A stretch of 64,000 nucleotides of DNA from Saxidomus purpurata (lineage: Eukaryota > Mollusca > Bivalvia > Venerida > Veneridae), in assembly GCA_022818135.1 (NCBI GenBank), contig JAFMSR010000019.1, positions 31,666,879 through 31,730,878 of the forward strand, written 5' to 3'. The position numbers and the translations under genes are program-made. Below are positions 31,418-61,915 of the stretch, in pieces. Below the pieces are notes generated by a model that made no database searches, was not told where the DNA came from, and saw only the letters and a list, made by a program, of their open reading frames with translations. The first letter of the stretch is position 1; each line of letters opens with the position of its first letter.

Positions 31418-34400
31418 TTATATCCAGATCCTTCGGAACATCATTCTCGTTGTATTTATACGAGGGAACTCAGTCACATTGTAAAACATGGAACACCCAG
31501 TGTCCGTTCGGTAACAGTATCGTCCATTCAGGTTAGAATAGGAACAGTAGTTATACCACCATCCCCCGTTATGAGCAGCACAATTAATCAGGGTTTTGTC
31601 ATGATCGAACGTAGAAAATGCCATGTTGTTATGATATAACAGTCCATCAGAACCTGAAATTAAATTAGATTTCTTTAAAAGCCTGTTTTCTTTTTCTGCT
31701 TAACGAACTTCGTTCTTGATTTATGTGTGCATATGTTCTGATTGGAGAGTACATTGTATTGCAATCCTCTGAACAACCCTTTGTCATTTATCGCTATATT
31801 GTTAGAAATACTGTTCTATATTTAGTGAAGTATGGGGTTTTATACATGGAACGCAATAGAAAGGGTCCATATGAAATTCTGTAAAAACATTTTAAATGTT
31901 AAGAAAACTACACAAAACGATTTTATATATGGTGAGCTGGGTAGATCAACTTACAAAACACAACGCTGTTTAAATATTTTGAAGTATGCGGTAAAGATAC
32001 TGAAAACTGATGATAAAAAGTATGTTAAGAATGTGTATAGTATGTTGAAACATGATTTTGAGAATGTTCCCAATTTGTCCAATTGGTGTTCTTTAGTTAA
32101 ATTTCTTTTAATATGTGATTTAGGTTTCACGATGCTTGGTTGATGCAAAGTGTTGGCAATACTGATTTGTTTTTATGCACTGTAAAACAGAGACTCCATG
32201 ATCAATTTGTGCAAAACTGGTCAAGTAGGTTGGAGAACTCTAGTAGGGCATTATTTTATAAGCAAATTTCCTATTTCAAATTTCAACCGTATCTTCGTCT
32301 GGTTAATATAAAAAAGTACCGTATCGAATTTACAAAATTAAGAGTATCTTCTCACAGATTACATATTGAAACTGGTAGATGGACGAAGCGAAATAGTACA
32401 CCTGTAAATGAAAGAAAATGTTTTATATGTAATGTTTTAGATAATGTATACCATTTTTTACTCGAGTGTAAATTATATTCTGATTTGAGAAAACGTTTGT
32501 TACCATCTTATTTTTGGAGACGACCAAATGTGTTAAAATTGCTAGAATTGGTAAACTCATAAAATGAAAATTTAACTCGTAAATTAGAAAAATATATATT
32601 CTGTGCTTTAGAGTTGCGAAAATTAAGTTTGTTTGGTGATCGCAACTGAGCTTTTATAATTATGATTTTGTGACTTTTCTAGCTTATTTATATTGTTGAA
32701 TATATTTCATGGCACTAAATGAATTAAAATAACTAGGGGCTTAATGATTTCGAAATCCGATTGTTGATCTTGTGTTTCGTTTCGCCAAGATCAAAAGAGG
32801 ATCATTTTTTATTAATGTTAGATCGAACACAGGTATTATGAATTGTTTTGGTTTTTTTTAGATACAAAAAAAACATTGTAAAATGTTTATCGGCAATTGT
32901 TAAAATTATTTTTCTTATAGAACCTTCTCCGTTTCACTGTTGTATTTGTCTCGCCATTTTCATGATTGCAAATCCTCATTCAGGACTATTTGAAAACAAA
33001 CTTATCAAACTTATTTAAAAGGACACTCCCTACATCCTCCAGACATCAATAATCGGTTCAATGAACATAATATGATGAACATATTTTACAGAACAACATA
33101 TATCGAAAAATGTCTAATTTAAGCACAAGATAGGCCTTCTGTAATAAATTGCTATTCACCCATTCATGGACAAGAAAATCATTGATGTAAAGCATCAAAG
33201 GACGCCGAAAAAAGTTTCTATTTCAACATTTATTAGTTATACGGTTTTTGCATATCGCAATTTAGCCTGACAAAAACGTACAATCGTAGATTTTTGCCGT
33301 AAATACATCGTAATAACTCATAAAAGTGACCAAATCGTAATCATCCGTGTACTTTTACGAATTTGTGCCATACGTAAGGATTCGTAAGACAAATCCCGTA
33401 TGTGTGAAGTTAGCATTACTTTTATTCACATGTTTAATCTGTAAAATTAATCAAAATTAATGCTTCTCAATTTTTATACGTTCTCAAGTAATGTACATTA
33501 GCTTTTTGATAAGCAATCATTATTAGTATTAGTTTGATTTGAATGAAAACGTTTATGAATATTTGCAGAAAACATTTAAAATCATGGTGGTTTTAAAGCT
33601 GAAAAAAAACGGAAGAAAAATTATTTTAAAAAATTGGGTTTGACCGGGATTTGAACTCCACTCGTAAAATTAGGCGGTCATCAGCTTACCAACTTCTGTC
33701 TATTTCGTATTATTTTAGCATACAGTTAAAACCATTTTTCTTCGCATTCAAATAACCGCTCCTACCATGCACTTCCGGAAAAACCATTCCATAATAGGCC
33801 GCCGCCGTCATCGGCGGCGCCAATAATATAATGTTATTAATGAAGTGATTTCATATTGGCCTTGTTATTTGTCCGAGGGTGGTCGTATTGGCCCAAGGCC
33901 GAAGGCCGAGGGCCAATAGGACTGCCCGGGGACAAAGAACTAGGACAATATGAAATCACTTGATTAATGATAATTTTATTATTCAACTTTACAATATTGG
34001 CTAAATAAACAAGAATATAAAGAGAATCTAACATGTTCATGAGTTGTGGATAAGGATATCCCACCCAAGGGTTGAGATTCGTCACAAAAATGAGGCTCTG
34101 CCGAGTTTTTTTGGACGTATCTCAACCCGAGGGTGGGATTTCCTTATCCACAACTCAATGGACATGGTAGATGTATTTTCTCACCGTTTGAATCGCATTT
34201 CACACAAGTAAGAAGAAATAAATATAGGCCTACAGGAGGGGGATGAAAAAATGAAAATCAACTTTTTCTCGAATTTTACTTCAAAGCTGTTATGGATTGA
34301 TAGAAAATGATCTAACTAAGAAAATGAATACCCATAACCCTATGTTTATTTCAAAAATAAAATATTTACAGTCATTTTTCGATATCAGCATGAGTCTAAA

Positions 34401-37400
34401 AACAAAATGGCGTCGTTTAAAAATCTAACGGACTTCTCCTTATTGGCCCTCTCTTTTAAACCAATCAGAATGCTTGAATTCCATATTAGCCCTGCTTTTC
34501 TCGTATTGGCCCTGCTTTTCTCATATTGGCTCAGTTATGCTTAAAGTTTGTATTAGCTCTACCTGTTTCATATCATGTGTGCAATTGATCTAATACAGAG
34601 TGTAATATTGTAAAGTTGAATAATAACAGCATTTAAAACGCTGTTTTTACCGATAAGGACTGGAATGTATAGCTTAAAGGTCCATTACTTTTTCTTTTAA
34701 ATCTGGAATCGTAGCGGGCGTCTTTTCAAAAGGAAAAATATGGCATACTGCATTGAATGTGACCATTTTGCGTTGAAAATTAAATAACAAAAGAATAAAC
34801 AAATAATATTTTGCCTTTTCAAAAACGAAAGTAGGTTTTCCCGTTTTCAAATAACTTTGTAATTTTTCAGAAATCTCCCAGAGAGAGGCTGTAAATAGGT
34901 TTTACATAAATAAGCATGCCTATTTGGAATTGCAATTGAAGAACTTTACTTCCAATGATGTGCAAGGTATATGTGTGACTGTTTACAATATTCAGCGAAA
35001 GTAGGACAAAAAGACCACCCAGGTAAATCTAAGGAAATACACAAAATTCACTCGTTTTTCTGCAGCAGTATTTGGTGTTAGTAACGGACATTAAAACCTT
35101 AAGGTTAAGTTATAATACTTGTAAATATCTATAATTTATGCTTTTGAAGTTATATAATTTGACAACAGTTTAAGGCAGTGCGTCTTTAAAGCATGAACAT
35201 TCAATTTTATGATAATTACTAAGAAAGTTATGTTTTCTTAGTAATGTAAGTACTTATAGCATCCGAAGTCAAGGCGGACTTTAAACTTGGGTTTTCAGTC
35301 CAATTAAAGGATATAGGGAAACAAGAAAGACAACGCTTTGAAGGAAAACTTTAAGCTTCGCTCAAATTTACTCGTATCCGTAACCCTTTGTGTTATTGCA
35401 TAGCCTATAACTAGCGAAGATATTTTTAATTGTTTACTCATACTAAACAAGTCAGTTGATTAATTTATAATCAGCATGCGTTTAATAACCGTTAACTTTT
35501 GTTTATTCTGTTAGTTAGAGAAGTAACCTTTTCTTAGTTGGTCAACATGCGTGTAACCATTGTTGAATGGTAACATGGTTTAACCAAAATTGTTACAATA
35601 TGTTGCTTTATAGGGGAGCGGTAATGTAGAGGTTAAGGTATCTGCCGCTCATGCCGGAGGTTGCGGGTTCGAGCCCCACTGGAGTCACGACCTTATCTCC
35701 TCATATGACACCAGTACTGTTTTTTTCCAGGAAGCGGACTCGAGAGTAACTCGATAAGCTCCAAGCTTTCTTCATAATCGAACTTAAATAAATTAATATA
35801 AACTATAAACCTACCGGCTGTTCCTGAAGCTGTAGATATATGAAGTGTGTAGTTAGTTCCTGCCGACAAAGAGAAATTTCGAAATGTTTCATATGCCTTT
35901 TTTCCATCAACCGTGGCAAATTCTATCCGCAGTTCCGTTTGTCCTTGTGTTGTTAGTTCATAAATGTACTCCAAACCTTTATGGTTGAAGATATAAAGCG
36001 GCTTTAAGGAGAAGCTATTGGTGAAAAGAACTCGTCATTTCATTAATACGATTAACATGTAAAACTAAGTGAAAACTAAAAATAATTGTAGTCTAAGAAC
36101 AGTCTTGGAAATTATCATTGATTGATCAGGATAAGCATGATCAACTTTGGGCGAGGTGAAAACTATAATGAGAAAAAAACGCTTTGAATATTTTGATATT
36201 TAAAAGCACTTATAAGCGAGAAATTTGGTATCAGCTTTGTTTTTCAGTCCTTTCTTAACATATTAAAATTAGATTAGTTTGATGAAGATACATGAAAGTA
36301 GAAACAAACAGAAGATATCGTATGTATAGATTCTAACGAAACAGATACCTAGCCAAAATTCTCCGGTAAGATTTCCAAAACCATCAACATATTGCTGGAA
36401 GTTTCTTGTAAAGTTTACACTGCCATCGTACCTGTTTTGAAAAACCTGAAATTAAAATGGTTACATCAAGAACTTATTATGCATTTATAATTTAGTTACA
36501 ATGTAAAATTTCTCTACCATTTTGTCATTTTATAAATATTTAAAAATGTTCACAAATAGCAATTTGTTCCGCACTTTTAAAGCTATATAAACATATTTTA
36601 GAACGAATAGTCATCTAAAAGGGTCCCAGTCTAATTTCCTGTAGGGTATAGATGTACATTTGAAACTGTATGCTTCCATATAATAAAGCGTTTCAAACGC
36701 TTTTGAAATTCCAATATAACCATACAGCCCAGCGAAACCAAACCCCATCAACATTTTCAATGGGTTTCTAAAATGTCTACCTACATGTAGATATTTACTT
36801 TCATTGATGATTCGTGCATTTATTTTTACATTGTATACTAGAATACATTATTTTGGAGGAAATGATGTGTTTCACCTAAAACTGCAAGCGAGCAGCTTAA
36901 ACAACGATGTGCCAATCAAAAGCTGCAGTCTTTCATTGACTATCGCATCAGTTTCAAGTCTAAAAACATGCAGTCATATTACCAAGCCGTAACAAAGTAT
37001 TGCTTTAGTTAAACAAATACAATCGTAGACACTAGAAAAAGGAAATTAAAGGGAGGTAATAATTTAATTTATTTTTGAAATAAACAACAAAATTTGTTAA
37101 CATAACTTTCTTTCATTTCATTTTTTTGAAATAAACAAAAAAAAATGTTAACATAATTTTCTTTTATTTCATTTTAACAAAAAAAAATGTTATGAAAATA
37201 TTTAGATATTTTTTCAAATTAACTTGTTATCTAACTGCATATTCTATTTATAGGACTGTTATGCATATACATCAATATGACATTAACTTCTTCGTTAACG
37301 GAAATGTTTGACCGCCTATTCCACCAGATAGTCGATTGAGTCCGCACACATATAGTTCCAGATCTAGTGGTTATGCATCTTGGGTGTGGGGGGGGGGAAT

Positions 37401-39241
37401 GACCTTGGTATGGGCGTTCCCTCTGAGGGTGTTAATGTTATGTTCTTTAAGCTGGTTAAAAAATTGAAAGATTTGGGTATGTCCCGAGTGTTGGTGGCGA
37501 AAGTCCCTTGCCGTGACAGGTTTAAAGGGACGGGGATGAAATTGACCGTCATGAGGCAAAACTGTAGGAATGTAAATATGTTCCTGCGACGGACTTATTA
37601 TAAGTCTAATATACATATGAAGGGTTCGAATCCTGGCTGTGACAATGGGAATTTCAGAAACGCTTTTCAGTGTTTCCCATCAATCTAGAGATGATCGACT
37701 GGTTAGAAGCCCAGGGGTAGTCCAACGTGTATAGGTGCAATACGCCGGGCATGTAAAAGAACTAAGAGGTCTATTCGTAAAGGAGCTAGGGTCTGGTACC
37801 CGAATTTCCTTGTATATGCTGACTAAGCATATAATATTCTTTTATAAGGTGTTACTGCATCAGTGTATTGCTTATTCTAACACAAGCGGCTGCTTTTCCT
37901 GTATAAACATATAGGGAAAGCCTGTATTTTATTTTACTATAACATACAGCACGTTTTTCCAAGGACGACGTGCCTAAAATGACGTAACGACGTGACGTAT
38001 GTAAACAAGCGCGTCCAATCGTATATCGCGTTTTAAGGTTACAATGATGTATTACTACGCGTTCAATAAAGTTCGCGATTGTTTTCAAAGAAAATAACGT
38101 GTTAAAGTCGAAATAATAAATTGTTCCCCATATTTTATCGTTGAATAAAATACAGTCAGTCATTTGGATGCGAAAACTTAAATCACTCGTGCTACACACT
38201 CGTGAGTTAATTACTGACCATATTTAATTCAACGATAAAATAAAAGGAGGCATTTATCATTTCTTAATTAATTTAGTCTATACATAGTTCCCACAATCAC
38301 AATACTTACCCCCCTGTTCTGAATTGTCAGCCACACTGTATGGTGACTTCCCTTAAAGTTAAAAGGGAAAAATCTACTAAACACTTACAAACTAATCAGA
38401 TTTATAAACGTAATTAATCTATGATGCTGATATGGACAGATGGCACACCATGTTCAAAGAAACATGTGGTTGTCACACATAAATGCTCTTGCTATTACCA
38501 CATAATTGAGAAAAAATCCTATTAATGCTTATTAGTTTTGCCATTCAAAAAGGCTGCTTATTCAGAACAAGGGAGGTAAATATTGTGGATATGGGAACTA
38601 TGTATAATATGCATACGTACGACCAGTGTGTCAAACGGGTTCTGCATTTGCACAATGTAAAGCGACTTAGCTTACAGTATACAGTAAACCTGGTTTATAA
38701 AGAACTCCTTAGCACCATTTAAATGTGTTCCTTATATCCAGAGTTTGATATATCCATTATAATTTTTATATATAGAATAGATAAAGAAAATACTCAGGCA
38801 GAAAAAATGTGTTCCTAATATCCGAAATTTCGCTATATCCGGAGTCGATATATATGCGGAGTTTACTGTACAGATATGTGACCAAAACGGGTTCTGAATC
38901 AGTACATTGTAAGGCGATTTACCTTACACTATTCAGATAATACTATGTGACCAAATGAGACAAAAACTGGTTCCACATTTAGTACATTTTGTAAACTGAT
39001 CTAACTTACAATATTTATACTACCAAATGAGGCAATTTGGAAAGTTTCAAGTACATTTAATCAAATTTAGGATACGCTGAAACACCAATATTGCTTCAGT
39101 TGATTACTACCGTCCATCCACCAGTTGTCATGTCACAATACACCTGCAGATCTTTGTGTGAGTTCCATGTTGTAATGTTATATATACCGTCCGTGTTGTA
39201 GTTCCTATACCGAGCCAGATCTCTGCAGTCTGTCATTAAAG
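31418..39241 (-). CDS. Fibrinogen-related domain (four exons)
   Basis: Exons 39241-39111 ([19 protein letters not shown]...[12 protein letters not shown]), 36445-36349 ([33 protein letters not shown]), 35976-35815 ([19 protein letters not shown]...[13 protein letters not shown]) and 31653-31418 ([20 protein letters not shown]...[23 protein letters not shown], stop). All the usual landmarks are present: GGWTVFQ, GFGNLxGEFWLG, ELRI, SGTAG, FSTxDxD, NCA..GGWWY..C. The calcium-loop run usually written DxDND is DHDKT here, so metal binding may be weakened. About 209 residues, normal for a FReD. Confidence 0.9.
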
Positions 39242-42200
39242 CTGCAACATAATAATAATTGTCGATCCTCTAAGATACAAAAGTAAGCCTACTCATCCCG
39301 GATGTTGCGGGTTCGAGCCCCACCAGGGTCACGACCGTACTTTCTCATATGACACCAGTACTGGCTTTTCCATGAAGCGGACTCGAGAGTGATTCGATAA
39401 GCTTCAAGCTGTCTTCCCAATCGAGCTTAAATAAATAAGTATAAACTAAGCCTACTTAAAGTCCAAGGATCGCATTTCCAAGTAGCTTTCTTTTTATCAA
39501 GAAAGAAGTGTTACAGACAGAAATGACCTTTATTTGTACCAAAAACATTCCTAACTTTGCGTTTTTAAATCGTTAAGTACACAGTGACATAGCGTTTTTT
39601 TCAATGATAATGAAAAAAAGAAAGCCTTTCTGACAATAACTTGAATACGAAAGAAAGGCATTAGTCAACATTGTTTTAGAGTGAATAGAACATGTTTCTA
39701 TCGTTCAACGATCCTGAGACTTTAAACACATTTTAGCCACACAAAACGTTTTTTTTTCTATTTATTAGCATTGTACATGTATGTCTTCAATATCAGTTAT
39801 AGATTATCATTTGACGTCAGCAATAAAAGGAATAAAGTTTATTGCTATGCAAAATTTTCTTTTAAATTGTATTTCTGTTTAAAATATTTAAATTGTTTTA
39901 ACTAATAAATGTTTCAAAATGATTGTAAATATGTGCATTTAAAGCCCTATGCCTCACAGTATCGGGTCGTTGAAGTAATAATAATATTTGAAAATTAATT
40001 ATTTAAAGTTTGGAGTACAGTAAACTCCGTATATAACGACTGCCGATATAACTAAAATCCAGATATAAGGAACACATTTTCTTTGCCCAAGTTTTTTTTT
40101 CTGTCTTTATTTTATATGAAAATGTTAAATGGATATAACAAATTTAAATGGTCCCAAGGAGTTCGTTATAAGCGGAGTTAACTGTTATACGTTTTGTTCG
40201 CAAATTGGAAGTAATATGATACTGCAAATGATCAATACAATTTTCTAATTGCTTGTGCTGCTATATTAGGACGTACGATAATATGTCAGATGATCAAAGT
40301 AGAAGAATGTGTCGCCGTACGTTGACGCTGCAAACCGCTGCAAAGAATAAAAGCCAGAAAGACTAGGCAATCACAAAAACTGCTGATAATGTCGTAAAAG
40401 CATCAGATATCATATGCACTATCCAACAGCACATCTGAACAGAAATTTTACCTGACACTTGACAACACTGACAAGGGAGCAAGGGGAACCACTTTACGAC
40501 AACACTAATAAAAACTGTTGTGACATCACCAAGCAATACAAATAAGGAATGAATTTGAGACCTTGGTTAACGCAGAAATTTCCTAAAACATTTACATTTG
40601 ATTGAGCATCTCCTGCCTTCGTAGCCTTCTTGGCATGCACATGTGTAATTGTTGACAGCGTCCACGCAGGTTCCATATGTTCCACAGGAATACCAAGCAC
40701 AGTCATCTAGGTCTAAAATATGCAGGTATGAGATAAAGTATCCATGGATGATGCCAAGTAATCATTTATGGTGATATATATTAATTTATGAGTACAGTAA
40801 ACTCCGTGTATAACGACTCCTGATATAATGACATTTCGGATATAAGAAACATTTTTTTCTATGGCGGATAATGTTTTTCTTTTTAAATCTAATTTGAAAA
40901 TGCTTTATGGATATAAGGTACTCCGGATATAAAGAACATATTTAAATGGTCCCTATCATTTCGTTATATACGGAGGTTACTGTATATGAAGTAAACATTC
41001 ATGTATGAGGTATTACAATGTAATAGTATCCATTCATGAGTTTATGAAAGGAGTATCCATTATTATATTAGAAATATGAAGTGACTGTATTATCAAACGT
41101 AACGAAAGTTAAGAAAATTAGTCTTACGTTGATAATATACATATTTTACAAGTTATTAAGTATTTATATACAATGAAAATAAAACTGTAAATTTTCAAAA
41201 AAGAAACAATTACACTTAAAGCATATACAAGTTAATTCGTTTCTTAGTTATATGCTGATTACTACATGTTATAAATTGTCCTCAAAGGTAGAACATTCAT
41301 ATTACCAACTTCGCACACAATCCCTGAGTAACCAGGAAAACACGTGCACGTAACGTATTCCCCTTGCATTTCACAATCGCCATTTTGACACGGGTTTGGA
41401 GTACAGTGGTCTGTAGATTCACATAGCTTCCCTGTATATCCAGACGGACACCTGCATACAAACTCTCCTCCGGCATTTTCACAGTTGCCATTTTGACACG
41501 GCTTTGGACTACAGTGGTCCTTAACTTCACACAGCTTCCCTGTATATCCAGACGGACACCTGCATACAAACTTTCCTCCGACATTTTCACATTGTCCATT
41601 TTGACACGGGTTTGGAGTACAGTGGTCTGTAGCTTCACATAGTTGCCCTGTATATCCAGACGGACACCTGCATACAAACTTTCTTCCGACATTTTCACAT
41701 TGTCCATTTTGACAAGGATTAGACATACAATGATCTGAAATAGAATCTTGTTGTTGAAATTACATGTAATAAAAATACCATCATATCATATAAAAGTTTA
41801 ATTAATTAAGAATTAACATTTCGGACAAAGAGGTGTATGCTAGACTCCTGTCTTCGTGTGAAACTGCTAATTTTCTCGCATAAAAAGACATGGGTTATGA
41901 GAGGTTACGGCTATTTCAAGTCAGCGATTCTAACCAATAGATCACGGGGGCAGACTATGGTTTTGTCAATATACAATGTGCTTGTATGTGACCTTGTTTT
42001 AATGTTGCACGGAAACATTGTTATTATGATAGAGTAGGAATGAGGTAAGGATCAACAGTTGTGATTGCATGACAAAATAATGTATGTGATGCAGTCTTCG
42101 AATCAATGCAAAACACGTATAAACAGGCGAGACAGGTAAAGAAGAAATGTGGTGCACTTTCACATTACGTTACAGTGCAAAGGTCCTTATGCTTACTGTT

Positions 42201-45200
42201 AATCCCGAGTGCCGTTTCACAGTCTCGGTTGCAAAGATCTCTACTGCAACATGCATCGCACACATGCAGTTCATGTGTTCTTTTTTCCATAGCTATATCT
42301 CTCTTTCCGATTATTGCCACATGTGTTGCATTTGCTGACTCACATGCCTAAAATAGTGTCGGGCAGAATTTGATAATAAACGGTTATAAAAAATGGTGTC
42401 TAAATATATGATATCTATAAAATTATGTATTTTTATTAATTTTATCAATTAAATAGAAGTACAATATATATGTACTCAAACAGTATTTTTTATCAATTAA
42501 ATAGAAGTACAACATATATGTACTCAAACAGTTTTTTTTTATCAATTAAATAGAAGTACAACATAAATGTACTCAAACATTTTTTTTTTTATTTTCTGTC
42601 TTGTGTCTACAGTGATCATCATTGTATTATATACAGACGCATATCCGTGTGTTCGTCATACACAAAATATTATGTAAAAATAATGTTTAAAGAACTTACG
42701 TGATTCGAAACACACTTGCTTGCATACACAATATTCGAAAATAAATTCTTGCCGACAATGCTGCATGCCTAAATGGAATAGACCACATATTAATATTTAC
42801 TTTTATATAGTAAACTCATTAAGATAACATAAAAAGGAAAGGCAATATTTAATTTCTAGTGTTATTATGTATAATATTACAAACGAAATATATCTTCACG
42901 ATCGAGCTAAAATAAGTAAGTATAAACTAAACTAAACTAAACTAAATCTCAAATTTATTCATTTACTATAATTATAATAATTGTTAGTGTCATTATAAAG
43001 CATAACTGCAATTAAATTGTTTTCCTATATGTCAAATAAAATGCTTGAGATTAATGACTTTGAAACTTCTTGTCGCTTTTCCGTACATACTGAGTATCGT
43101 GTACATGTAAACGCGGTGATTTGATTTTCGCTTTTTTTCGCGATTTTCAAATTCGCTAATTTGAAAATCTCACGAAAGATTAATTTCACAAAGATTTACT
43201 ATAATTAGAGAATAATCCTTTCGCGAATTTGAAAGGAACCAATCAAATAAGCTGAAACCACAGTTTAAAGTGTCACGTGACTCGTTAAAACGATGATTAT
43301 AAATACTATACTTTAAACTGTGGTTTAAGACTTTAATATGATGTTTTAAGAATTTGAAATTCGTCAAGCGAATATTGTTCCCAATTGACAGCGCATTTTG
43401 TAGTGTAATCTATCGCCTTGTACCCGGCTCACGTTGATTCTCTCATTAATGATATTGAAAACAATTAACCGTTTCTTTTTATCCTTTGACAAAAGAGCAA
43501 ATAGTTCGCGTGTGCATAAACATCAAACAACATACTTCACCAAGCGAGCAAAATTCTATATCATGACATCGACCTGCACCCGTGTGTATTGGACAGTTGT
43601 AGCAGATAGGTCCTATGTCCATAGGATATCCTTAAAGGAATACAAAAAGTTGACGAATTTGAATGCTTGAAGCTTTTGGTTTCGTCTCAAACTAAGTCAC
43701 GTCGTACCGTCCTGTATAGGCTAGGCAATCGTGAATACAACATGTACTATATTTTGTGAAGCCATTTATATTTAATGCAGCTTTGTTTGCCAAAATATCA
43801 TGTAAGATCAGAAAAAAACGAACCTGCAAGTGTCTGTAAATTGATGATATATGAAAAGCTGGCGGAAATATTTTGATGCATCTTTGTATACAGTTACCGT
43901 ATTAATTTTAGTGCAACCCTAGGTTTCCGCTGAAGGTGGGTGTTTCTTTACATTAATTATTCGTGCACTTGCTGTATTCACTATGCGCAAAAGGAAGATG
44001 GTCTTTACTTCGTTTAGAAATGACATTAAAGATAAATAGTTGCATCAGCAATGGTGATGATATAACATATTACGACTTCTGTTTGTAATAATTCTGCAAG
44101 AAAGCCGTCTGTGTGTGACAGGTTTTTCATATTAATGTCAAATTAAGTACCTGCTAAATGATTAAAATCAGTATGCATCAACAGACCTGGGATTTAGATA
44201 ACTCAAAGAAGGAACAACATATTGTATGGCAAGCGAAACGCACATTAATTCTTTAAACTATAGGTTTAACTTCTAAGCCTTGCCACATATGGGTTAAACT
44301 TTATGCTTTGAGGCACTAGTATAGTAAAATAAATAAGAATTATTATACACTTTATTGTAACCTAAATTTTCCAGTTATATAAATAAGAGGAAACAAAGCG
44401 ATTCCCCCCAATTCTAAAATGGTAAAAACAATCGCTGATATTTGAGTCAAGAGAGAGCATTGACAAGGAGCGTAAATCACCCTAAGTGACAACTAGTTAT
44501 AATTACATCTCATAACACGCAAAACATAATTACATTGTAATTCAATACTACTTTAAAACCAAATTAGCATAGATGATAATAAAGATACTGCAAGTGTGAT
44601 GATGCAGTAGCTATGGACGAATGGCAGAGATGTAAACTTTAATGTTCATATTCACGTCAATTCTGTCAGCGTGACGAGAATGATTTTACTTTGTTCATTC
44701 ATTCTTGTTTAATTGAGCGAAGACGAAAGGCGCTGACGTTACAAAAATAAATTGCAAATTATATCTGAATGTGGTAATATTAAGAAAAATTTCCAATGAT
44801 TATAACATTCAAATAAGTACCCTATCGGGAATACTGACAAATCAAGGTGAAAGTATGCAAAACTTTCAAATTAAAACTTTGTCATCAAAGAGGAAACGTC
44901 ATCTATCCGAGGACCCAATGAGAAAGTTGAAAAAGCTTTATTTTCATTATGATAATCTAGAGAAACGACCGATTGTGTCCAGATTCGACGCTGTTTAAAC
45001 TCTGAAACTGATTAAGATTTATCTTGAATCTCATGGTGACGTATCAGAAAATGTTTTTGAACAATAACTGTGTTCTTAAAACTAAACAATCTCAGAAATC
45101 CTATTCTCGATTTGTTCAAGATACATTTATAAAGTAATTTTTGAGAAGAGAGACTTGAAACATATTTTTTAATTTTCATTATTGAGGTAATGAAAGTATC

Positions 45201-48200
45201 AGAAATGGACGATTCTTATGCTGACACAAGAAGGTTTAACAGGTAAATCAATTAATAAATTTTGATATATAGATGCATGTGCATTTAAACGGATACAGCA
45301 AACATCGTATATAACGAACAATTTCCCATGGTCCCGAGGAGTTCGTTATAACCGAGTTTTACTTATTTTATAGTAAAGTGACAAATATCCGATAACTGCT
45401 ATACAATGTAAATATCAGGCTAAACCTGATCATGAGCAGTGTCTGTTTGAAATCCTTACAGTGTGAAAATATATCATAAGCGAAATTAGTTACCCAGTTA
45501 TTTCGATTCAAAACGTAGGATTATGACAGCCAGTTCAATAGCGGCGGAAAAAACGTCGACGTAATTATGCGCAAATTCGACGTCGAAAATGATTTGCAGT
45601 GCCGCTGTTCTAAATGCCGTGGTACGTAACTGATACTGTTTACGTTTAAAGGATTGGGAAAAGATGCAGATTACCATCTATGAATTTTAATGAGATTTGA
45701 GAACAAGCGAAAATCGACCCTTAACGGGCCGAGCCCTTTTATCAAAGTGCATTCTTTGTCAGTCATAGTTTAATATTTGACGTTAATATTCATCGGGTTT
45801 TTTTTCTTATTCGTGTGCTATAAATATCAACTGATGCGTAATTTGTTTATCTTAATATTCAGTGTTGTAAACATCAGGAATTATGCAAAAACTGTGCCTG
45901 AATCCGGTTTGCAACCCATGAAAGCGCCTGTAACATTTAAACATAAAATCATAAGGAACATTTTAACGCTGCACTGCATGTACATAGATGTATAAATAGT
46001 TAGAATAAAACATAAGAAAATAAGTAAGATGAAATACTGAACTAGCTTAATTCTTAAAAATCTAAACTGATAGCAAAGCCCTGAATGTAACTCACGCAAG
46101 CGAACATGATTGTGGTCTAGAACCTTAGAATCTAGAATCTTGATATCATATATATGCCTAATTTTATCAAATCTATAGACTCCCATGCATACTGGTACCT
46201 TACAAAATTTGAAAATCAAGGGAGTTTTGTTTTACCTGACTGCAATACCCTGTCAGTTGTATCCAAAGATTATGATTATTTAGCCAAATTGTGTAAAATG
46301 CCAGTAGTCAAAAAATAGATATACGAGATTGCAGACCAGACACGCGTTGCCAGCGTACATCGGTTCTCGAACCACTTTGCCTCATGGTGCATTTATTAGG
46401 TGTAATAAATCATTTACTTGTAAAAAGACGGCCAATTGTTTAATGTTTCGAGATAGATTCCAACCCAGTGGCCGTTGTAATTATGTATGAGAATTATTTT
46501 GCAAACGGCACATGAAACTATATGTTTAACAGTGAAATCCACGGTTCAAGAGATTTATTGTGCACTTGGCGCGTAAAACCCTAGATTAAAGTCTTAAACA
46601 CCACTTTAAAGTATTAATATATGTTATCATCGTTTTAACGGGTAAAGTTTTAAAAGGTCCACTTTAAACCGTGGTTTTTGCTCATAGGATTGGTTGTATC
46701 TTAAAGAATGGGTTTAACAGACTTTAAACTGCGGTTTAAAGGGACATACCCTATAACTGATGTCAAACTAAATAACCCCAAAACATAAATAATAAAATCT
46801 TTGGAAGTATTGTAACTTAACCTAAAAGTTTCACCTTTGCACTCCAGTCATTATCGATAAAATCAGCGGTTTAAAATATGCTGCTAAACCGTTCAATAAT
46901 CTATGTAGAGTTGTTGTTATACAATTAATGGGTGGATGCGATTTATTACAGAAGGCCTCTACATTTATAAATTGTGGTAAAATGAGGCATTTTTCTCCAT
47001 AGGTTCTTCTTTGAAATTGTATTTATTTATTTTTGAAATCACCAAATATTGTCATATTTGCTGCTAAAGTCACCAAATATTATCATATTTTCTTTTGAAA
47101 TTACCAAATATTATCATATTATCTTACCTGGCTCTCCACAGCCTTGTGAATTACAAAGGCTCCCAGATTCACAACATTCTATGCAGCTTTTGGTTAAAGA
47201 TGGATTTAGCTCGACAGTTGCATTACTGCAAACCTGAATACACGATATGTCAAAATAACATTTATAAAACAAATTTGAAATACAATACTACAGTCTTATA
47301 GGCAAACTTCATAAAAGGTAATACAAGCATAATTTAGCTTATCTTTCCATTCATTCCTACTAAAAACTGAAGAGCACACAAAACGATGCAAAATAGTAGA
47401 AAGCATTATTTTGTCTTTCAATATGTTTGTATGTGAAATATTCAGAAAGTTGTAAAACCTTCTCCACTTTGGTTAAGTAATATCATCTCATATATGTATC
47501 TACACTGCTATTATTTGGTGTTCGCCATATAATCTGTATATGTGTGCCTCTGTGGCTTTTTAGCCTAATGGTTTTGCTTGAAATCAAACTTTGAAACTTT
47601 GAAATTTTATCTTTTTTTGTATTAGGCTAACCTACATAAACATTTATTTGATACTTCGCAAACATAAATGGACAAAGATTTAAATATAAATTAAAAGTGT
47701 TGTCAGAAATAAAATATATGTCTTAAAAACAAATTACAATATATAAAAAATACCTGTTTTGAAAAGCAACCAAGATTAAAGACATGCTCTCCAAACTCAT
47801 TGAGTACTTTTTCAACACCACAAAACTGCGAAGAATTTGTAATAACACGTTATATGTGAACATAGATTAGTGTAAAGCAACCCTATTCTTTATTCAATTC
47901 GAATCATTTTTGTGCAAATATTTACCAAAATCATTCCAACAGTCGGGGAAAATCTCAATCTGAAAATCGCTTAAAACGGAAATGGCCGAGCCATGTTCAG
48001 ATTTCTTTTAAAATTTCGAACGAGGGAAAAGGGAAACGAAGACCTATTTGGAAGTAGTTGTTTCTGACAGAATATATGAGGTTAAACATGTAATAAGCAT
48101 AATACACCTCTAATAGCGTAAATATCCGAAGCGTTATCGAGTAAAAGTACGAGTTACCAACCCTGTATTGCGAGTAAAGTGGATGTGCTGCGCTAAAGTC

Positions 48201-50941
48201 TGTAAGAAATTGTTTATTTTTTAACTGTCTGACATAGTTTTTCGATCGATATACCACTAGAAAGCATATTTTCCAAGTATATATATATAATATACTGTAT
48301 GCTATATTTTCCCTGTGATGCAAAAGTGAAACCGGTTGGCAAATACAAATAGAAAACTCATATAGTGTCATTATTGTCATATTATTTATATAATATCCTA
48401 TATTTCATACCACTTCGTACATTGAAATAACTGTTAAACGTGACAATATACCGGGAATTTTACAGTGCATGTTATGTACATGTATACAGATAAGTCGTTA
48501 GTATTGTTTATTCGCTAAAAGTTGATAAAAACCAGGAGGAGAAAGGCGCTTTCTGGAAGTATTTAGTCGTGTATTAAATTGCGTGAGGTTAGCCTTAGAC
48601 ATGATACGTTAGGAAAAGACGTGTGGTTTAAATTATATCGCAGGACACACTATATGAACTATTTCAAGTATTGTTATAGTTTATCAGAATGATTTCTTAT
48701 GCCAAAGCATTTTCAGCTTCATAGACTCGGTAATTGAACAGGTGTATGTTTACATCGCTCAAATAATTCACAATGATTTAAAATGTGCATCTAGCTTTAA
48801 TATATATAATACTCACTTCCAATTCGAAACAGTCTACAACCTTGTTACAGTATCGTGGCTGCGGTACACCATCGCACTTAAGACATGTAAGTCCATCAAC
48901 TTGTGTTTTAAAAGAAGTAAAATGAACTACATTCAGCAGGTAGCATTAAAACATTAAGTTTATCATTTTCATTGGACATATGCTTAATTTTGTATATTTA
49001 ATTTGATATCATTTTCTTGATACGTTTTGAGTTATTTCGAACGGAAAATACAAATGCCACGTACATGTAGTTAATCAGAAGATTGTAACGTTTTCATGCT
49101 CGTGTCTATGCTGAGGTACTTATACCAAACAACGGAATTTTGACTTTAAAGCTGCTCGCTGTCAGATTTTGGTGAACAAATAGATCCTTCAACTTCTCCG
49201 AAAATAACATATTTTAGAACAAAAAGTCAAATTACAAAGTTCAAGTATAAATTCCTGTAAAGTATAGCTGTTTTTAAATAATACGCTACAAAATTATAAA
49301 GGGTAAAAGACACATTTGAAAATCCCAGTATAACCATATAGCGTAGCGATGGCGTTAAACCAAACTCTCCAACAATTTCAAAAGATTTCTGCAAATTGCT
49401 ACTGTGGTGCTGTGGTGTTGATTCTAGCAAGGCCTAAAAAAAAATTTTTTTCAGGTTTCATGCCACCTAAAAATAGGGTAGGTAGGTAGGGATTTTTTTT
49501 TTATTCTCAAAAAAAAACAACAAATTCAACATAGAATTTAATGAATTTATGCTAAAAAATATTAACACTCAAAAAATGTTCAAGGGTCGGGGCAAAAAAA
49601 TAGGGTAGGTCGGGAAACCTGAAACTATCATATTTTTTTACGCCTAATTACTTTTACATTTTATTTTTTATTTATATCATTGCAGAGAAATATATTTTTT
49701 ACCAGAAACTGTGCGCGAACAGCTTTAAATAAACTCCTAAAACTTTTCTGATTTTGTTTTTGTCCAAATAAGTTAACATGGCTCTTATCATTATGTTGAA
49801 GTCTGAAATGAATATTTAACTATCTACCTACCCTTCTTGCTGAACATCAGTGACAAAACAATAGTAATGGCTGTAATTCGTATAGCTGAAAAGAAAGTAA
49901 GTAATATTTTGACTGAACTGGCAAAGATTGTTAGACGAGTCTCAATGACGTTTACACTTTCCTATATGTATATAGCGCAAAACTTTTCCCTTCCGTAGAA
50001 TTTCTTCAGACTTGGTGGGGCTCGTTTTGGGGAGGCTGCGTTTTTGGTATGTGGCATTCCCTGTTTGATATTATTTTTGTTTTTTTGGTATTTTGACTGA
50101 AAATTAAGTTTGAAATAGAAATCTGAAGGAAAAATCATAGGTCACCGGTCTTGATTTTGAATTATCTGCCCTTGAAAATCAGAAAATATATCAAAAGGCT
50201 GTGTTCAGAGCAGATAATTCCAAATTAAAGCCCGGTGACCTACGATTAAAGGCAAATCTAGACGACTAAAGAATATTTAACAATATAACCTCATTTCCCT
50301 GCTATAAAGAGCCGGTATGCATTTCTTAGTTTGAACATCAACTTTTGTGTAGTATTGAACTGGAGAACTTGAAATGATTGTCAGGATTGAATGATTTGTG
50401 TGTATGTTAACTAAGAAATACATGATTATTTTTTAGTTGTTTTAACTTTCTAATGGTAATACAGGCACAGTGATATAGGCGTCTCTTCACAGATCTAAAT
50501 AAAACGCTTAATTGTTACTCGAAGTCTAGAAATAATTAATATCAAAATTATTCAATATAGATAAAAAAAACACCCGTGTGAAACTATTCTCTTAATATTT
50601 TATCCACGAAACGACAAAATTTGTCTGACATATTTATGTGCCCTAAATGGTAAAATACAATGTTCTGTCATTTGTATTCGTTTAAAGGTTATACTTGGGG
50701 AATTTTCTTATGAGACTTATTAAAAGTAGAACAGTTTGATTTTAGAGAAAAAGTTTAACCATACTGCAATATTATATATTTGTTAGATATAAACATCTTT
50801 TAAAATAGTATAAAAATTAATTGTACATGTATGATAATAATATGATTTATATATCTTATAAATTCTTACAGCAGTCCAGCAACATGTATTAGGATAAGCA
50901 GATAATAATGGGTCAAATTATAAATAGTTCTCACCTCTCAT
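31418..50941 (-). CDS. Secreted Ly6(x2)-EGF(x5)-fibrinogen-domain protein, 14 exons
   Basis: Assembled on the minus strand from coding exons 50935-50941, 49832-49885, 48817-48899, 47754-47825, 47128-47233, 43536-43630, 42700-42768, 42197-42347, 41306-41734, 40596-40712, 39111-39241, 36349-36445, 35815-35976 and 31418-31653. Every junction is AG/GT, phases match, and the sum is 1809 nt (602 aa plus stop). Order: signal peptide, two Ly6/uPAR domains, four EGF repeats, one calcium-binding-type EGF, FReD. Modules are flanked by phase-1 introns, the signature of exon shuffling. No transmembrane segment, so secreted or matrix-bound. FReDs bind acetylated or sugar ligands in several animals, and Ly6 folds mediate protein contacts; a recognition role is inferred only. 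FReD, EGF and Ly6 calls are strong; the first two exons are weaker. Confidence 0.8.
31780..32700 (+). pseudogene. LINE ORF2 C-terminal fragment in FReD intron
   Basis: Two overlapping frames: [21 protein letters not shown]...[13 protein letters not shown] (to 32143), then after a one-base shift [13 protein letters not shown]...[18 protein letters not shown] and a CFIC...HFLLEC knuckle (CX2CX7HX4C), stop near 32560. Homologous to the fragment at 28655-29218. Inserted antisense to the host gene, between FReD exons 13 and 14. Confidence 0.65.
33630..33705 (-). repeat. tRNA-like SINE or tRNA relic
   Basis: Read on the minus strand it has AGTTGGTAAGCTG (A-box-like) and GAGTTCAAATCCCGG (B box) with tRNA-like spacing. 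The acceptor stem does not pair convincingly, so a functional tRNA is not claimed. Confidence 0.45.
33833..34633. mobile_element. Double-hairpin MITE-like element, second copy
   Basis: Repeats the 7.5-kb structure (hairpins 33833-33968 and 34039-34155) and continues farther right to 34605-34633, where ATATTGTAAAGTTGAATAAT is the complement of sequence at 33970-33995. The part near 34245-34380 reappears inverted at about 62290-62440, so this is a composite or longer family member. No coding frame. Confidence 0.6.
35612..35808 (+). repeat. tRNA-derived SINE, full-length-looking, next to a splice donor
   Basis: Head with AGGTTAAGGTATCTGCC and B box GGGTTCGAGCCCC, body TCATATGACACCAGTACTG ... 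AAGCGGACTCGAGAG, tail CTTCATAATCGAACTTAAAT followed by an AT-rich end. Same family at 39280-39446, 55198-55341, 63850-64000 and tail-only at 42893-42950. Its end lies only a few bases from the donor of FReD exon 35815-35976 (read on the other strand). Confidence 0.8.
36572..36900. mobile_element. TTAA-type MITE relative
   Basis: Left end TTAA-AGCTATATAAACAT, right end GCGAGCAGCTTAAA, with the inner phrase AAAGCGTTTCAAACGCTTTTGAAAT shared with the copy at 61319-61661 (where it is AAAAGCGTTTGCAACGC). Diverged; ends partly lost. Confidence 0.5.
37320..37815 (+). repeat. SINE-like dispersed unit
   Basis: Includes a B box GGGTTCGAATCCTGG near 37623 and a downstream GC-richer block (GCAATACGCCGGGCATGTAA, CTAGGGTCTGGTACCCGAA) of the kind seen in mollusc dispersed repeats. 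The long frames on both strands at 37364-37688 are not genes. Confidence 0.45.
38120..38245. repeat. Inverted-repeat (hairpin) element
   Basis: TATTTTATCGTTGAATAAAA on the left is the approximate complement of TTCAACGATAAAATAAAA on the right, with CAGTCAGT/ATTACTG pairing farther in. Typical of a very short MITE. Confidence 0.5.
38682..38868. mobile_element. Pogo/mariner-like MITE
   Basis: CAGTAAACCTGGTTTATAA at one end and GCGGAGTTTACTG at the other, each flanked by TA. About 187 bp, no coding. CAGT...ATAACG-type ends with TA duplication are the signature of pogo/Tigger-like Tc1/mariner MITEs. Confidence 0.65.
39280..39446 (+). repeat. tRNA-derived SINE, second copy
   Basis: Shares TTGCGGGTTCGAGCCCCACC, TCATATGACACCAGTACTG, GAAGCGGACTCGAGAGT and the tail TCGAGCTTAAATAAATAAGT with the 35.6-kb copy; the first third of the tRNA head is missing. 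Lies in the intron just upstream of FReD exon 39111-39241. Confidence 0.75.
40018..40184. mobile_element. Pogo/mariner-like MITE
   Basis: CAGTAAACTCCGTATATAACG at the left pairs with GTTATAAGCGGAGTTAACTG at the right; left flank TA, right flank TTA. Same family as 38682-38868 and 40795-40982. Confidence 0.65.
40596..40712 (-). CDS. Calcium-binding-type EGF exon
   Basis: A 117-bp exon, phase 1-1, encodes [36 protein letters not shown]. The D-x-D-D-C start plus a later aromatic YTC matches the cbEGF consensus, including the Asn position (VNNYTC) where beta-hydroxylation occurs in some proteins. It links the EGF array to the fibrinogen domain. Confidence 0.85.
40795..40982. mobile_element. Pogo/mariner-like MITE
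   Basis: CAGTAAACTCCGTGTATAACG and GTTATATACGGAGGTTACTG, flanked by TA on both sides. Lies between the EGF-array exon and the cbEGF exon. Confidence 0.7.
41306..41734 (-). CDS. Exon with four tandem EGF-like repeats
   Basis: One 429-bp exon, phase 1 at both ends, encodes four EGF modules of about 38 residues: HC..[29 protein letters not shown] three times almost unchanged, then a diverged fourth ([25 protein letters not shown]). Cys pattern C-x4-C-x4-C-x8-C-x-C-x8-C. The first three are nearly identical at DNA level (114-bp period), which suggests recent duplication or gene conversion. They lack the acidic calcium-binding signature and probably act as a spacer. Confidence 0.9.
42197..43630 (-). 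CDS. Ly6/uPAR domain 2 (three exons)
   Basis: Exons 43630-43536, 42768-42700 and 42347-42197 encode [20 protein letters not shown], then [19 protein letters not shown], then [10 protein letters not shown]...[12 protein letters not shown]. The first five Cys have the same spacing as domain 1, and the intron phases (1-0-0-1) are identical, so the two domains arose by tandem duplication of a three-exon unit. In exon 42700-42768 another frame also looks Cys-rich, but only the chosen frame keeps phase with both neighbours. Confidence 0.75.
42441..42590. repeat. Minisatellite, three units of about 48-49 bp
   Basis: Three copies of ATCAATTAAATAGAAGTACA (at 42444, 42492 and 42541), each followed by ACATATATGTACTCAAACA and a T run. 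Lies in the intron inside Ly6 domain 2. Confidence 0.9.
42893..42950 (+). repeat. SINE tail with (AAACT)n
   Basis: CTTCACGATCGAGCTAAAAT matches the 3' end of the tRNA-derived SINE family and is followed by repeated ACTAA units. The tRNA head is absent: 5'-truncated copy. Confidence 0.65.
43252..43330. repeat. Short inverted repeat (AAACCACAGTTTAAAGT type)
   Basis: ACCACAGTTTAAAGTG and ACTTTAAACTGTGGT face each other about 40 bases apart. Related arms (ACTTTAAACCGTGGT, ACTTTAAACTGCGGTTTAAAG) recur at about 46660-46740. Likely a tiny MITE or recombination relic. Confidence 0.5.
43631..47127. other. Intron between the two Ly6 modules
   Basis: Includes a partial pogo-like MITE (45295-45362: CAGCAAACATCGTATATAACG ... 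CGTTATAACCGAG) and a TTAA-type MITE (about 46740-47035). A short + frame at 44771-44998 has no recognisable family. No additional Ly6 exon found. Confidence 0.5.
46740..47035. mobile_element. TTAA-type MITE, second family
   Basis: Starts TTAA-AGGGACATACCC and shares with 59422-59790 the ordered phrases GATGTCAAACTAAATA, ATAAATAATA, TTACTTAACCTAAAAG, CAGTCATTATCGATAAAATCAGC, TTACAGAAGGCCTCT and TGAGGCATTTT. The right end is unclear. Confidence 0.6.
47128..48899 (-). CDS. Ly6/uPAR domain 1 (three exons)
   Basis: Exons 48899-48817, 47825-47754 and 47233-47128 encode [15 protein letters not shown], then FCGV...[11 protein letters not shown], then VCSNATVEL...[13 protein letters not shown]. The spacing C-x2-C-x8-C-x5-C-x5-C...GC-x5-C...CC-x5-CN is the three-finger Ly6/uPAR pattern with its closing CC..LCN. 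Introns between the three are phase 0; the module is bounded by phase 1. One NAT glycosylation sequon sits in finger 3. Confidence 0.75.
49150..49724. mobile_element. TTAA-flanked MITE with a nested MITE
   Basis: AGCTGCTCGCTGTCAGATTT at the left and GTGCGCGAACAGCT at the right, each adjacent to TTAA (49146-49149; 49725-49728). Its body is interrupted at about 49433-49649 by a second inverted-repeat unit whose ends read AGGCCTAAAAAA..TCAGGTTTC and GAAACCTGA..TTTTTACGCCT. Lies in the intron between the signal exon and Ly6 domain 1. Confidence 0.65.
49832..50941 (-). CDS. Start codon and signal-peptide exons of the Ly6-EGF-FReD gene
   Basis: ATGAGAG at 50941-50935 is followed by a GTGAGA donor; the next exon (49885-49832) follows a TTCTTTTCAG acceptor and ends before GTAGGT. 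Joined they read [18 protein letters not shown] then KK, a short basic head, hydrophobic core and small residues, i.e. a signal peptide. The phase-1 end joins the first Ly6 exon as V-DGLTC. The seven-base coding exon is short, so its choice rests on phase agreement and the plausible peptide. The intron between them holds a CA-core retroposon and a hairpin element. Confidence 0.55.
50017..50085 (+). mobile_element. CA-core retroposon tail, truncated copy
   Basis: Constant 3' block only (GGGGCTCGTTTTGGGGAGG ... TATTATTTTTGTTTTT), without the GT core. It is the shortest-but-one copy in the window and again stops sharply at the 5' side. Confidence 0.75.
50134..50247. repeat. Hairpin element
   Basis: TCATAGGTCACCGGTCTTGA and the complement of the right arm (AAAGCCCGGTGACCTACGA) pair over about 40 bases, also including GAATTATCTGC/GCAGATAATTC. 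Loop about 30 bases. Confidence 0.65.
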
Positions 50942-52682: not shown

Positions 52683-53634
52683 TCATTGACTTTCCGTAAC
52701 GCTAAACCTGTATTTCAGGTAATCCATGCAAGTGATTGGCTCATATTTATTAGACCCATCAAGGCATTCGATGACGTAGTCATCATCTGGATTAACGAAG
52801 AAAACGACAGATTGCCGGAGCTTCTGGAACTCTTTGTCCGGTATGACCACCCTGTGTTTTGTTGCAAGAAGAGTGTCGGCCGTCCATCTCTGCATCAGAT
52901 CGCCTATATTTACAACAATAGTGCCTGGTATGGGAGTAACCGGAACAAATCCTTTGTCGGGAATTTCTACCTCGAGACCCCCGGAGTCATCTTGAAATAC
53001 CAAGGATATTGTGCCATAATCGGAATGTTCTCCGAGACGGATCTGACCTGGTTTTAACTTAGAATCCTGCGTAATCTGTGGATAGTACAAACTTCGTAAA
53101 TTCGTTGGATTGCCTTTTTGGCCAACACATTTATGTGCGTCTCTCATAAAGCGCTCTCCGAGGCCAAGACCAAAGGACAGTGCGTCGCACACCCGGTGTG
53201 CCAGTTCAGCAAATCTTGAAAATACTTCATGACTTGCCTGCTGAAAATCGACCGTCGGCCAGTCGTCGGGATCATCTGCTGGGTGAAAATTGAAAGCTTC
53301 TTTTAGATCTCCTGGCCGTGACGGGTTTAACTTTTCTCTTTCGACTGCAACCCAACCAAAAACCTTTTCCGGGTGCCGGGAATACCTTGCTTTTTCTTCT
53401 ACTGATTGTTCAAAAAATGCCTGTGATACGGCAAAGTAGTTGTCTATCAAACTCTGATCGAATCCATGGTTCTTCAAATAACAGAAGCCGACTTCACTGA
53501 AGGCATTTCTTATAAGACTACCAACTTTTTTAAGTGCTTCTCCGTCAGTGTTTTTGCTCTTGCGATGCAGCCCAAGCTCGTCAAAATCTATAATGGGTAT
53601 TGGCGACTCACTGCCCTCCATCTTATTTGATAAT
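52683..53634 (-). CDS. 2-oxoglutarate/Fe(II)-dependent oxygenase (isopenicillin-N-synthase-like)
   Basis: Intact 312-aa uninterrupted frame (ATG 53621, stop 52683-52685). N-terminal DIOX_N-type region (PIIDFDELG at 9-17, FSEVGFCYLKNHG at 41-53, LKEAFNF at 106-112) and C-terminal double-stranded beta-helix with iron ligands H199, D201 (GEHSDYG) and H256 (TKHRVV), plus R269-x-S271 (RQS) for 2-oxoglutarate. All catalytic residues are present, so an active soluble oxygenase is expected; the substrate is unknown. Related to the UPF0676/IPNS-like group found in fungi, bacteria and invertebrates. A TTTTTACAG acceptor at 53635 just upstream of the ATG implies a spliced 5' leader. The gene is GC-richer than its surroundings and intronless in the coding part, suggesting a retrocopy or old transfer. 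Confidence 0.9.
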
Positions 53635-55197: not shown

Positions 55198-55341
55198 ACT
55201 TATTTATTTTAGCTCGATTGTGAAGAAAGCTTGCAGCTTATCGTCCTCTAGAGTCCGCTTCCTGGAAAACCCTGTACTGGTATCATATGAGGAGGTAGGG
55301 CTGTGACCCCAGTGGGGCTCGAACCCGCAACCTCCGGGTCG
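55198..55341 (-). repeat. tRNA-derived SINE, third copy
   Basis: Reverse orientation: TTTAGCTCGATTGTGAAGA (tail), GAGTCCGCTTCCTGGAAAA, TATCATATGAGGAGG, and GGGGCTCGAACCCGCAACC (B box on the minus strand). The far tRNA head is missing beyond 55341. Confidence 0.8.
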
Positions 55342-61854: not shown

Positions 61855-61915
61855 CTTGAAGAAAAAAGAAAATAAGAGGGACCGAGTCAGTATATGTAAT
61901 AAATACATCAAGTTT

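Follow-up and report, generated by a model that had tools for sequence, protein, structure and literature searches.

On the minus strand of the window, i.e., the whole 64,000-nt stretch of Saxidomus purpurata DNA analyzed here (C19:31.67-31.73 Mb; the genome comprises 1.135 Gb in 4232 contigs), a 14-exon gene extends from position 50941 to 31418 and carries a coding sequence of 1809 nt for a protein of 602 aa (Table 1). Its domains are two N-terminal Ly6/uPAR-type (LU) domains, five EGF-like repeats and a C-terminal fibrinogen domain (FReD). All 13 introns have GT..AG borders, phases agree at every junction, and each module is bounded by phase-1 introns, namely exon 2, exons 3-5, exons 6-8, exon 9, exon 10 and the FReD (exon 11 to the stop).

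Table 1 Features of the window and related loci elsewhere in the genome. Coordinates are positions within the 64,000-nt window, except for paralogous loci (Mb).
Feature	Position	Strand	Description
Exon 1	50935..50941	-	ATGAGAG (Met-Arg), 7 coding bases; phase 1 donor; no homology of its own
Exon 2	49832..49885	-	Hydrophobic, likely signal peptide; phase 1-1; low-identity alignment with N-termini of relatives
Exon 3	48817..48899	-	Ly6 domain 1 part a, Cys 1-4; phase 1-0
Exon 4	47754..47825	-	Ly6 domain 1 part b, Cys 5-6; phase 0-0
Exon 5	47128..47233	-	Ly6 domain 1 part c, Cys 7-10, CC..CN; phase 0-1
Exon 6	43536..43630	-	Ly6 domain 2 part a; phase 1-0
Exon 7	42700..42768	-	Ly6 domain 2 part b; phase 0-0
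Exon 8	42197..42347	-	Ly6 domain 2 part c including IIGKR loop; phase 0-1
Exon 9	41306..41734	-	EGF 1-4 within a single exon; phase 1-1
Exon 10	40596..40712	-	EGF 5; phase 1-1
Exon 11	39111..39241	-	FReD part 1
Exon 12	36349..36445	-	FReD part 2
Exon 13	35815..35976	-	FReD part 3
Exon 14	31418..31653	-	FReD part 4, DxD motif, ligand side; stop codon
Nucleotide-diphospho-sugar transferase genes (three)	1922-2830; 7992-8446 with 14609-15070; 22199-23158	+	Single-exon, PF03407; 90-97% DNA identity
2OG-Fe(II) oxygenase family ORF	52683-53621	-	Intronless, 312 aa; DIOX_N 3.9e-24, 2OG-FeII_Oxy 4.6e-19
Repeated element, ~150-200 bases	35601-35800; 39292-39443; 55195-55337; 63854-63999		Copies 86-88% identical
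ORF	32140-32562	+	In intron 13; Pfam only sub-threshold DUF4028
ORF	28655-29218	-	No Pfam match
Open stretches	59717-61954	-	Cysteine-containing
Paralog L033	C19:0.62 Mb		Six LU parts and four FReD parts found; splice borders fit window gene
Paralogs L037 and L038+L048	C14:21.94-21.97 Mb		Six LU parts and four FReD parts found
Paralog L039	C14:22.00 Mb		First LU part outside stretch examined
Paralog L035+L036	C19:33.46 Mb		Two LU parts and last FReD part not found
Paralog L040+L049 (with L024)	C19:30.59 Mb		First two LU parts not found

Positions 31418-50941 of the minus strand were read in three frames, and exons 3-14 were assembled from the DNA alone without an earlier exon list. Exons 1 and 2 were located using the end coordinate and total length given in a preliminary description of this DNA, and are therefore not independent of it; with these two exons placed in this way, the gene model of that description (14 exons with AG/GT borders and agreeing phases, 1809 nt, 602 aa) was reproduced exactly. 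Exon 1 is the least certain exon, with seven coding bases, a donor of middling strength (5 of 7 on an in-house measure) and no homology of its own, and a scan of the 6 kb upstream of exon 2 produced no alternative phase-1 ATG exon with a donor score of at least 6. A gene lacking a signal peptide was considered after a first scan, requiring at least 12 residues before the donor, came back empty, and was dropped when exon 2 and the 7-nt exon 1 were identified. A start of exon 13 at an upstream AG was likewise rejected due to a frame conflict, as the AG before GTTTGGAG restores both the phase and the usual FReD sequence. When the 602-aa protein was compared to the whole window by tblastn (E<0.1), only its own exons were matched, and thus no second gene copy was detected in the window. 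As judged by eye, exon 2 likely encodes a signal peptide and no membrane anchor follows the FReD, which suggests that the protein is secreted, in agreement with the preliminary description.

Pfam analysis of the full-length protein did not list Ly6 at E≤10. After being cut out, domain 1 matched UPAR_LY6 with an E of 4.3e-4 (21.1 bits) and domain 2 with an E of 0.92 (10.4 bits), neither of which reached the gathering cut-off of 24.8; the domain search proposed for the spliced protein therefore bore out the five EGF and the FReD, while Ly6 stayed below cut-off. At E≤1, UPAR_LY6 was matched by 5 of 18 whole proteins of alignment A1 and by 15 of 18 single LU domains (best E 1.1e-4), and Toxin_TOLIP by all 18 single domains (best E 5.1e-4). 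Using a profile of 18 LU domains (A3; two from the window protein and the rest from clam relatives) against PDB sequences, all 27 matches at E≤10 were three-finger proteins by name, 18 of them at E≤0.05, with SLURP1 (1.9e-5), PSCA and CD59 (both 8.9e-5) and GPIHBP1 (1.2e-4) as the best, followed by LYPD6, LYPD6B and LYPD1 and then by BMP receptor ectodomains (E 0.08-1.6). As single-sequence queries against the PDB, domain 1 gave no match and domain 2 one non-significant match (E 1.3).

According to the available part of a 2019 review, LU domains consist of 60-90 residues with ten cysteines (paired 1-5, 2-3, 4-6, 7-8 and 9-10) and an Asn after the tenth, and are encoded by an exon set that lies between phase-1 introns and is interrupted by a single intron at the loop 2 tip (PMC6600238). 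Both window domains and 18 of 18 aligned domains retain all ten consensus cysteines together with the Asn, and domain 2 as cut (92 residues) is slightly above the size range of the review. Exons 3-5 and exons 6-8 both have phase 1 at either end, matching the flanking introns described there. In place of the single intron at the loop 2 tip, each domain is interrupted by two phase-0 introns, located directly ahead of Cys 5 and Cys 7, a partition also present in paralog L033. Two additional cysteines (three before the CC, and after the CN) are invariant in the 18 aligned domains, bringing each domain to twelve, and may form an additional disulfide. The profiles of domains 1 and 2 match as homologs (hhalign E 2e-14 in local and 3e-13 in global mode), which together with their identical inner phases (1-0, 0-0, 0-1) points to duplication of a three-exon LU unit. 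All 17 aligned domains 2 carry a loop motif, [IL][IV]G[KR], roughly 20 residues ahead of the final cysteines (IIGKR in exon 8 of the window gene); the motif is possibly a basic cleavage or binding site. A regular-expression count of 27 of 27 for this motif was discarded, since an IVGK/IVGR string in another part of domain 2 confounds it.

Predicted models of two relatives were used to assess the fold. In the model of P0002 (28 sequences, mean pLDDT 75), the strands of domain 2 (110-112, 125-128, 133-142, 145-154 and 184-190) follow the two-plus-three order of a three-finger fold, at 10-residue block means of pLDDT of only 34-77 in the LU part. The model of P0003 (18 sequences, mean pLDDT 62) likewise has a compatible order of strands at low confidence in its LU part, and comparisons of the relatives' models by VIA-align and Foldseek listed FReDs only, which says nothing about LU. 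The three-finger folds proposed earlier for the N-terminal domains are hence supported by the PDB profile matches and the P0002 strand order, with the low model confidence counting against them, and remain a prediction. A cysteine-rich but non-LU identity, with chance resemblance among cysteine-rich folds, would be consistent with scores beneath the Pfam cut-offs and with the nearly empty single-sequence PDB search; it has only a slim chance in view of the exclusively three-finger matches of the profile, the complete set of consensus cysteines with the Asn, flanking introns in phase 1 as in LU genes, and the five-strand order predicted in P0002 domain 2.

In the central and C-terminal parts of the protein, Pfam identified EGF in five stretches (E 9.4e-23) and Fibrinogen_C with an E of 6.4e-46 (157.4 bits, cut-off 22), and neither an immunoglobulin family nor an FN3 domain appeared among the matches at E≤10. 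EGF 1, 2 and 3 of exon 9 share 83-89% DNA identity with one another, and EGF 4 shares 64-77% with these three. Given this similarity, and since in L033 three EGF exons encode a single EGF apiece, exon 9 was most likely expanded by tandem duplication within the exon. The DxD motif of the FReD, which we take to be a calcium site, reads DHD in the window protein and is present in 15 of 25 FReD-bearing relatives. By sequence, the best PDB matches of the FReD include FIBCD1, angiopoietin-2 and tenascin-R. The acetyl-binding pocket of FIBCD1 is formed by Y405, H415 and Y431, as given in the part of the source available (PMC9449597). In the window protein, Y405 is replaced by His and H415 by Ser, Y431 lies outside the aligned stretch, and one of 25 relatives has His at the H415 position. 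As the pocket is not conserved, an acetyl-lectin role like that of ficolins is not suggested. Compared with the LU exons, exon 14 shows clearly lower conservation in four of seven relatives (P0001, P0002, P0003 and P0005) and about the same conservation in the remaining three (P0007, P0008 and P0009).

The window gene has several paralogs. Fibrinogen_C was matched at least 152 times in the Saxidomus genome, single exons counting separately, and the LU-pair profile gave 24 matches at E≤0.01, six of which are the window gene itself. Six further loci carry LU, EGF and FReD exons in that order on one strand (Table 1). More distant LU exons (L026, L029, L030, L042 and L045) are located at C8:45.04 and 45.07 Mb and at C19:31.86 Mb; no EGF or FReD exons were found in the 30 and 20 kb examined near those at C8:45.04 Mb and C19:31.86 Mb, and the C8 and C19 exons are possibly stand-alone LU genes and donors of the pair. 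For the close paralogs L038 and L039, the overall omega of 0.26 suggests that LU-FReD genes (these paralogs, as distinct from the window gene) are under purifying selection. The omega values of this pair by part (D1a left out) were 0.07 (LU), 0.24 (FReD exons 1-3), 0.72 (last FReD exon) and 1.42 (EGF), with LU differing from the last FReD exon at a Fisher p of 0.004 (p 0.20 without exon D2c). A constant LU part and a fast FReD, as suggested by this pair, were not reproduced by L037 and L039 (LU 0.31, FReD exons 1-3 0.37, last FReD exon 0.24, EGF 0.08; D1a and D2b left out), and both pairs share L039.

Three protein searches yielded 220 listed proteins, which cover the best 120 each of 842 and 748 matches in the two large searches, so that all family counts are lower bounds. 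LU profiles built from 16 relatives and the window protein identified an LU pair in at least 26 of these 220, and at least 25 have a FReD at the end. Those bearing both and named to species number at least 17 and come from Mercenaria (P0002, P0003, P0004, P0012), Ruditapes (P0001, P0005, P0126, P0130), Dreissena (P0014, P0025, P0124, P0125, P0127, P0132) and Mya (P0018, P0020, P0129), providing the combination of Ly6, EGF and FReD that the preliminary description had suggested be sought in other bivalves. The middles vary: by regular-expression pattern counts among the 25 listed proteins with LU pair and FReD, there are five EGF in six, four in one, three in three, two in three and one in two, and the others have one TSP1 (five), two TSP1 (one), three TSP1 (one) or neither (three). 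P0001 (fibropellin-1-like X5, R. philippinarum) is 47% identical to the window protein across 98% of the latter (E 3.6e-176) and also consists of two LU, five EGF and a FReD, and P0002 and P0003 (both Mercenaria) have two and one EGF, respectively. As P0001 and five more of the 26 listed proteins already have the LU pair, five EGF and FReD, the architecture is not the single novelty that was first thought possible.

P0097 (Mercenaria) has an LU pair followed by a Thr-rich stretch and a Mib_herc2 match in the absence of a FReD, and is either a further mosaic built on the LU pair or wrongly annotated. Nine further listed proteins combine a FReD with one LU match, including P0148 and P0152 from Mactra; P0006 and P0151 of this group look N-terminally cut. 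Judging from P0097 and these nine, the LU pair and FReD are not inseparable. In the NCBI taxonomy, Mercenaria and Mactra belong to Venerida and Dreissena to Myida, all within Imparidentia, and on the sequences at hand the LU-FReD family is so far found in clams of Venerida and Myida, with the pair and FReD together in most putative members. No oyster, mussel, scallop or snail protein is among the listed LU-pair matches that carry a species name; because the search depends on exact words in common, this does not demonstrate absence. Database names of family members include fibropellin-1-like, neurogenic locus notch-like and SCO-spondin-like, and Ly6 does not appear in those of P0001, P0002 or P0003.

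The combined architecture could in principle result from a Ly6-pair gene and a neighboring EGF/FReD gene wrongly joined in the model, as the gene model is known from DNA, most relatives are themselves gene predictions, and the LU exons lacking nearby EGF or FReD exons make stand-alone Ly6 genes conceivable. Alignment with seven relatives also leaves room for this at the Ly6-EGF junction (8/9), which is gap-free in one of the seven (P0001); junctions 3/4, 4/5, 5/6, 6/7, 7/8, 11/12 and 12/13 (seven of 13) are gap-free in all seven, junction 2/3 in five, 9/10 and 13/14 in two each, and 1/2 and the EGF-FReD junction 10/11 in none. A fusion artefact is nevertheless very unlikely, indeed close to negligible, because the six further loci of the same genome share the exon order and strand. 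Both ends are moreover carried by the 25 or more listed proteins described above, and P0007 (608 aa) and P0017 (498 aa) are encoded on contigs of 1980 and 1779 bases, respectively, which appear transcript-like since they are too short for introns of the size seen in the window gene (their source, lgn, we take to be assemblies of sequencing-run reads). The claim that a single gene joins two domains of Ly6/uPAR type to five EGF and a FReD accordingly stands.

The LU and FReD ends also have correlated distances. Trees of both were made for 24 of the 27 pair members, the window protein included, leaving out P0004 and P0132 (incomplete) and P0097 (no FReD), and their distances gave a Mantel r of 0.80, with 0 of 999 permutations as high, which further counts against wrongly joined genes. 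The type of middle changed at least three times on the LU-pair tree and on the FReD tree, and strong support was limited to 6 of 21 inner branches on one tree and 8 of 21 on the other. The matching distances, to which shared species history contributes, argue against frequent reshuffling of the LU and FReD ends and not for an interaction between them.

No description of Ly6/uPAR or three-finger domains combined with a fibrinogen domain in bivalves or molluscs was found in the open-access literature, which is not proof of absence. FReD proteins of Biomphalaria glabrata are classed as FREP, sFReD and FReM (EGF and fibrinogen) in the available part of PMC7588048. The window protein resembles the FReM, likewise a mollusc protein, in having EGF-like repeats before the fibrinogen domain; the N-terminal region of the FReM is described in that source without a domain name and "Ly6" is absent from its main text, so that this comparison is by description only. 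FREPs of gastropods likewise place a C-terminal fibrinogen domain behind differing N-terminal binding domains and form a multigene family, but carry one or two IgSF domains according to the same source (PMC7588048), whereas the window protein has no Ig family among its Pfam matches at E≤10 and has LU domains in that place. With the LU proteins uPAR, C4.4A, CD177, SLURP1 and CD59, the window protein has in common the ten cysteines with the Asn and the phase-1 flanking introns, and with uPAR, C4.4A and CD177 the tandem arrangement; it differs in that each domain has twelve cysteines and is split by two phase-0 introns, and in being fused to EGF and FReD. FReDs are the recognition heads of FREPs, ficolins and angiopoietins, and EGF repeats also precede the FReD in tenascins.

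LU loops and the concave face of the sheet generally take part in protein-protein interactions (PMC6600238, available part). Based on these interaction surfaces, the probable secretion and the role of FReDs as recognition heads elsewhere, we favor an extracellular role of the LU-FReD protein in recognition or adhesion, in which a spacer of adjustable length would separate two binding ends. Taken jointly, it seems reasonably probable that the protein acts in this way and that the window locus is one intact gene for a secreted mosaic of signal peptide, two LU, five EGF and C-terminal FReD. The ligand of the FReD head would be located on a microbe, a cell or the matrix, the row of EGF repeats would serve as the spacer, and the LU pair would form a second protein-binding end, through self-association or binding of a partner or receptor. 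Both binding roles, as well as secretion, the three-finger fold and any link to immunity, are features that we infer. In hard clam, transcripts named "neurogenic locus notch" were raised in infected tissue, a link of which to the LU-FReD family is not shown (PMC4769524, available part), and the "fibrinogen-like protein A" of Manila clam, which is induced by poly(I:C) (PMC7430831, available part), could not be linked to this family.

The main rival is a structural or signaling matrix protein, similar to tenascins or angiopoietins, with one fixed FReD ligand and no immune role. Such a protein would agree with the angiopoietin-2 and tenascin-R structures among the FReD matches, with the altered FIBCD1 pocket positions and with the tenascin-like order of EGF and FReD, but we consider it less likely, as FN3 is missing from the Pfam matches at E≤10 and at least seven genome loci with varied middles would better fit a diversifying family.

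According to the available part of the 2019 review, LU domains occur mostly as single domains or in LU-only multidomain proteins, with GPIHBP1, SP-10 and TGF-beta receptors as exceptions; the domain is regarded there as a "proto-module" at most and probably not as a genuinely mobile one (PMC6600238). The LU pairs found here, with their symmetric phase-1 borders and placed in EGF, TSP1 and FReD mosaics of at least four clam genera, count against this view and add EGF, TSP1 and FReD to the known LU settings. Extending the recognition or adhesion reading, we tentatively propose, as a possibility that is somewhat doubtful, that clams made LU a true mobile module within an unrecognized family of secreted recognition proteins, FREP-like and with the LU pair replacing Ig, in which an exchangeable EGF or TSP1 spacer would connect a constant, partner-binding LU end to a diversified FReD as the variable recognition end. 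What is new is thus an LU-FReD mosaic family of clams, the members of which are already in databases under other, misleading names, and labels such as fibropellin-1-like or SCO-spondin-like may lead to misreading in studies of transcripts. Whether clams use LU-FReD proteins where snails use FREPs becomes a testable question.

The remainder of the window contains additional genes and repeats (Table 1). The middle one of the three PF03407 copies is split by a 6.2-kb insert, with halves that overlap by 5 nt, resembling a target-site duplication; direct repeats of at least 80 bases were not found in the insert. The 2OG-Fe(II) oxygenase ORF is located just upstream of the LU-FReD gene on the same strand. 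Two copies of the ~150-200-base element sit in introns of the LU-FReD gene, and this element, with what we take to be tRNA-like box-B text, is probably a SINE; scans of the window for tRNAs (ARAGORN) and Rfam families (gathering) gave no matches. The ORFs at 32140-32562 and 28655-29218 resemble the C-terminal part of non-LTR retrotransposon proteins. Finally, the open cysteine-containing stretches at 59717-61954 have the look of exons from a further gene, with the same orientation as the LU-FReD gene.
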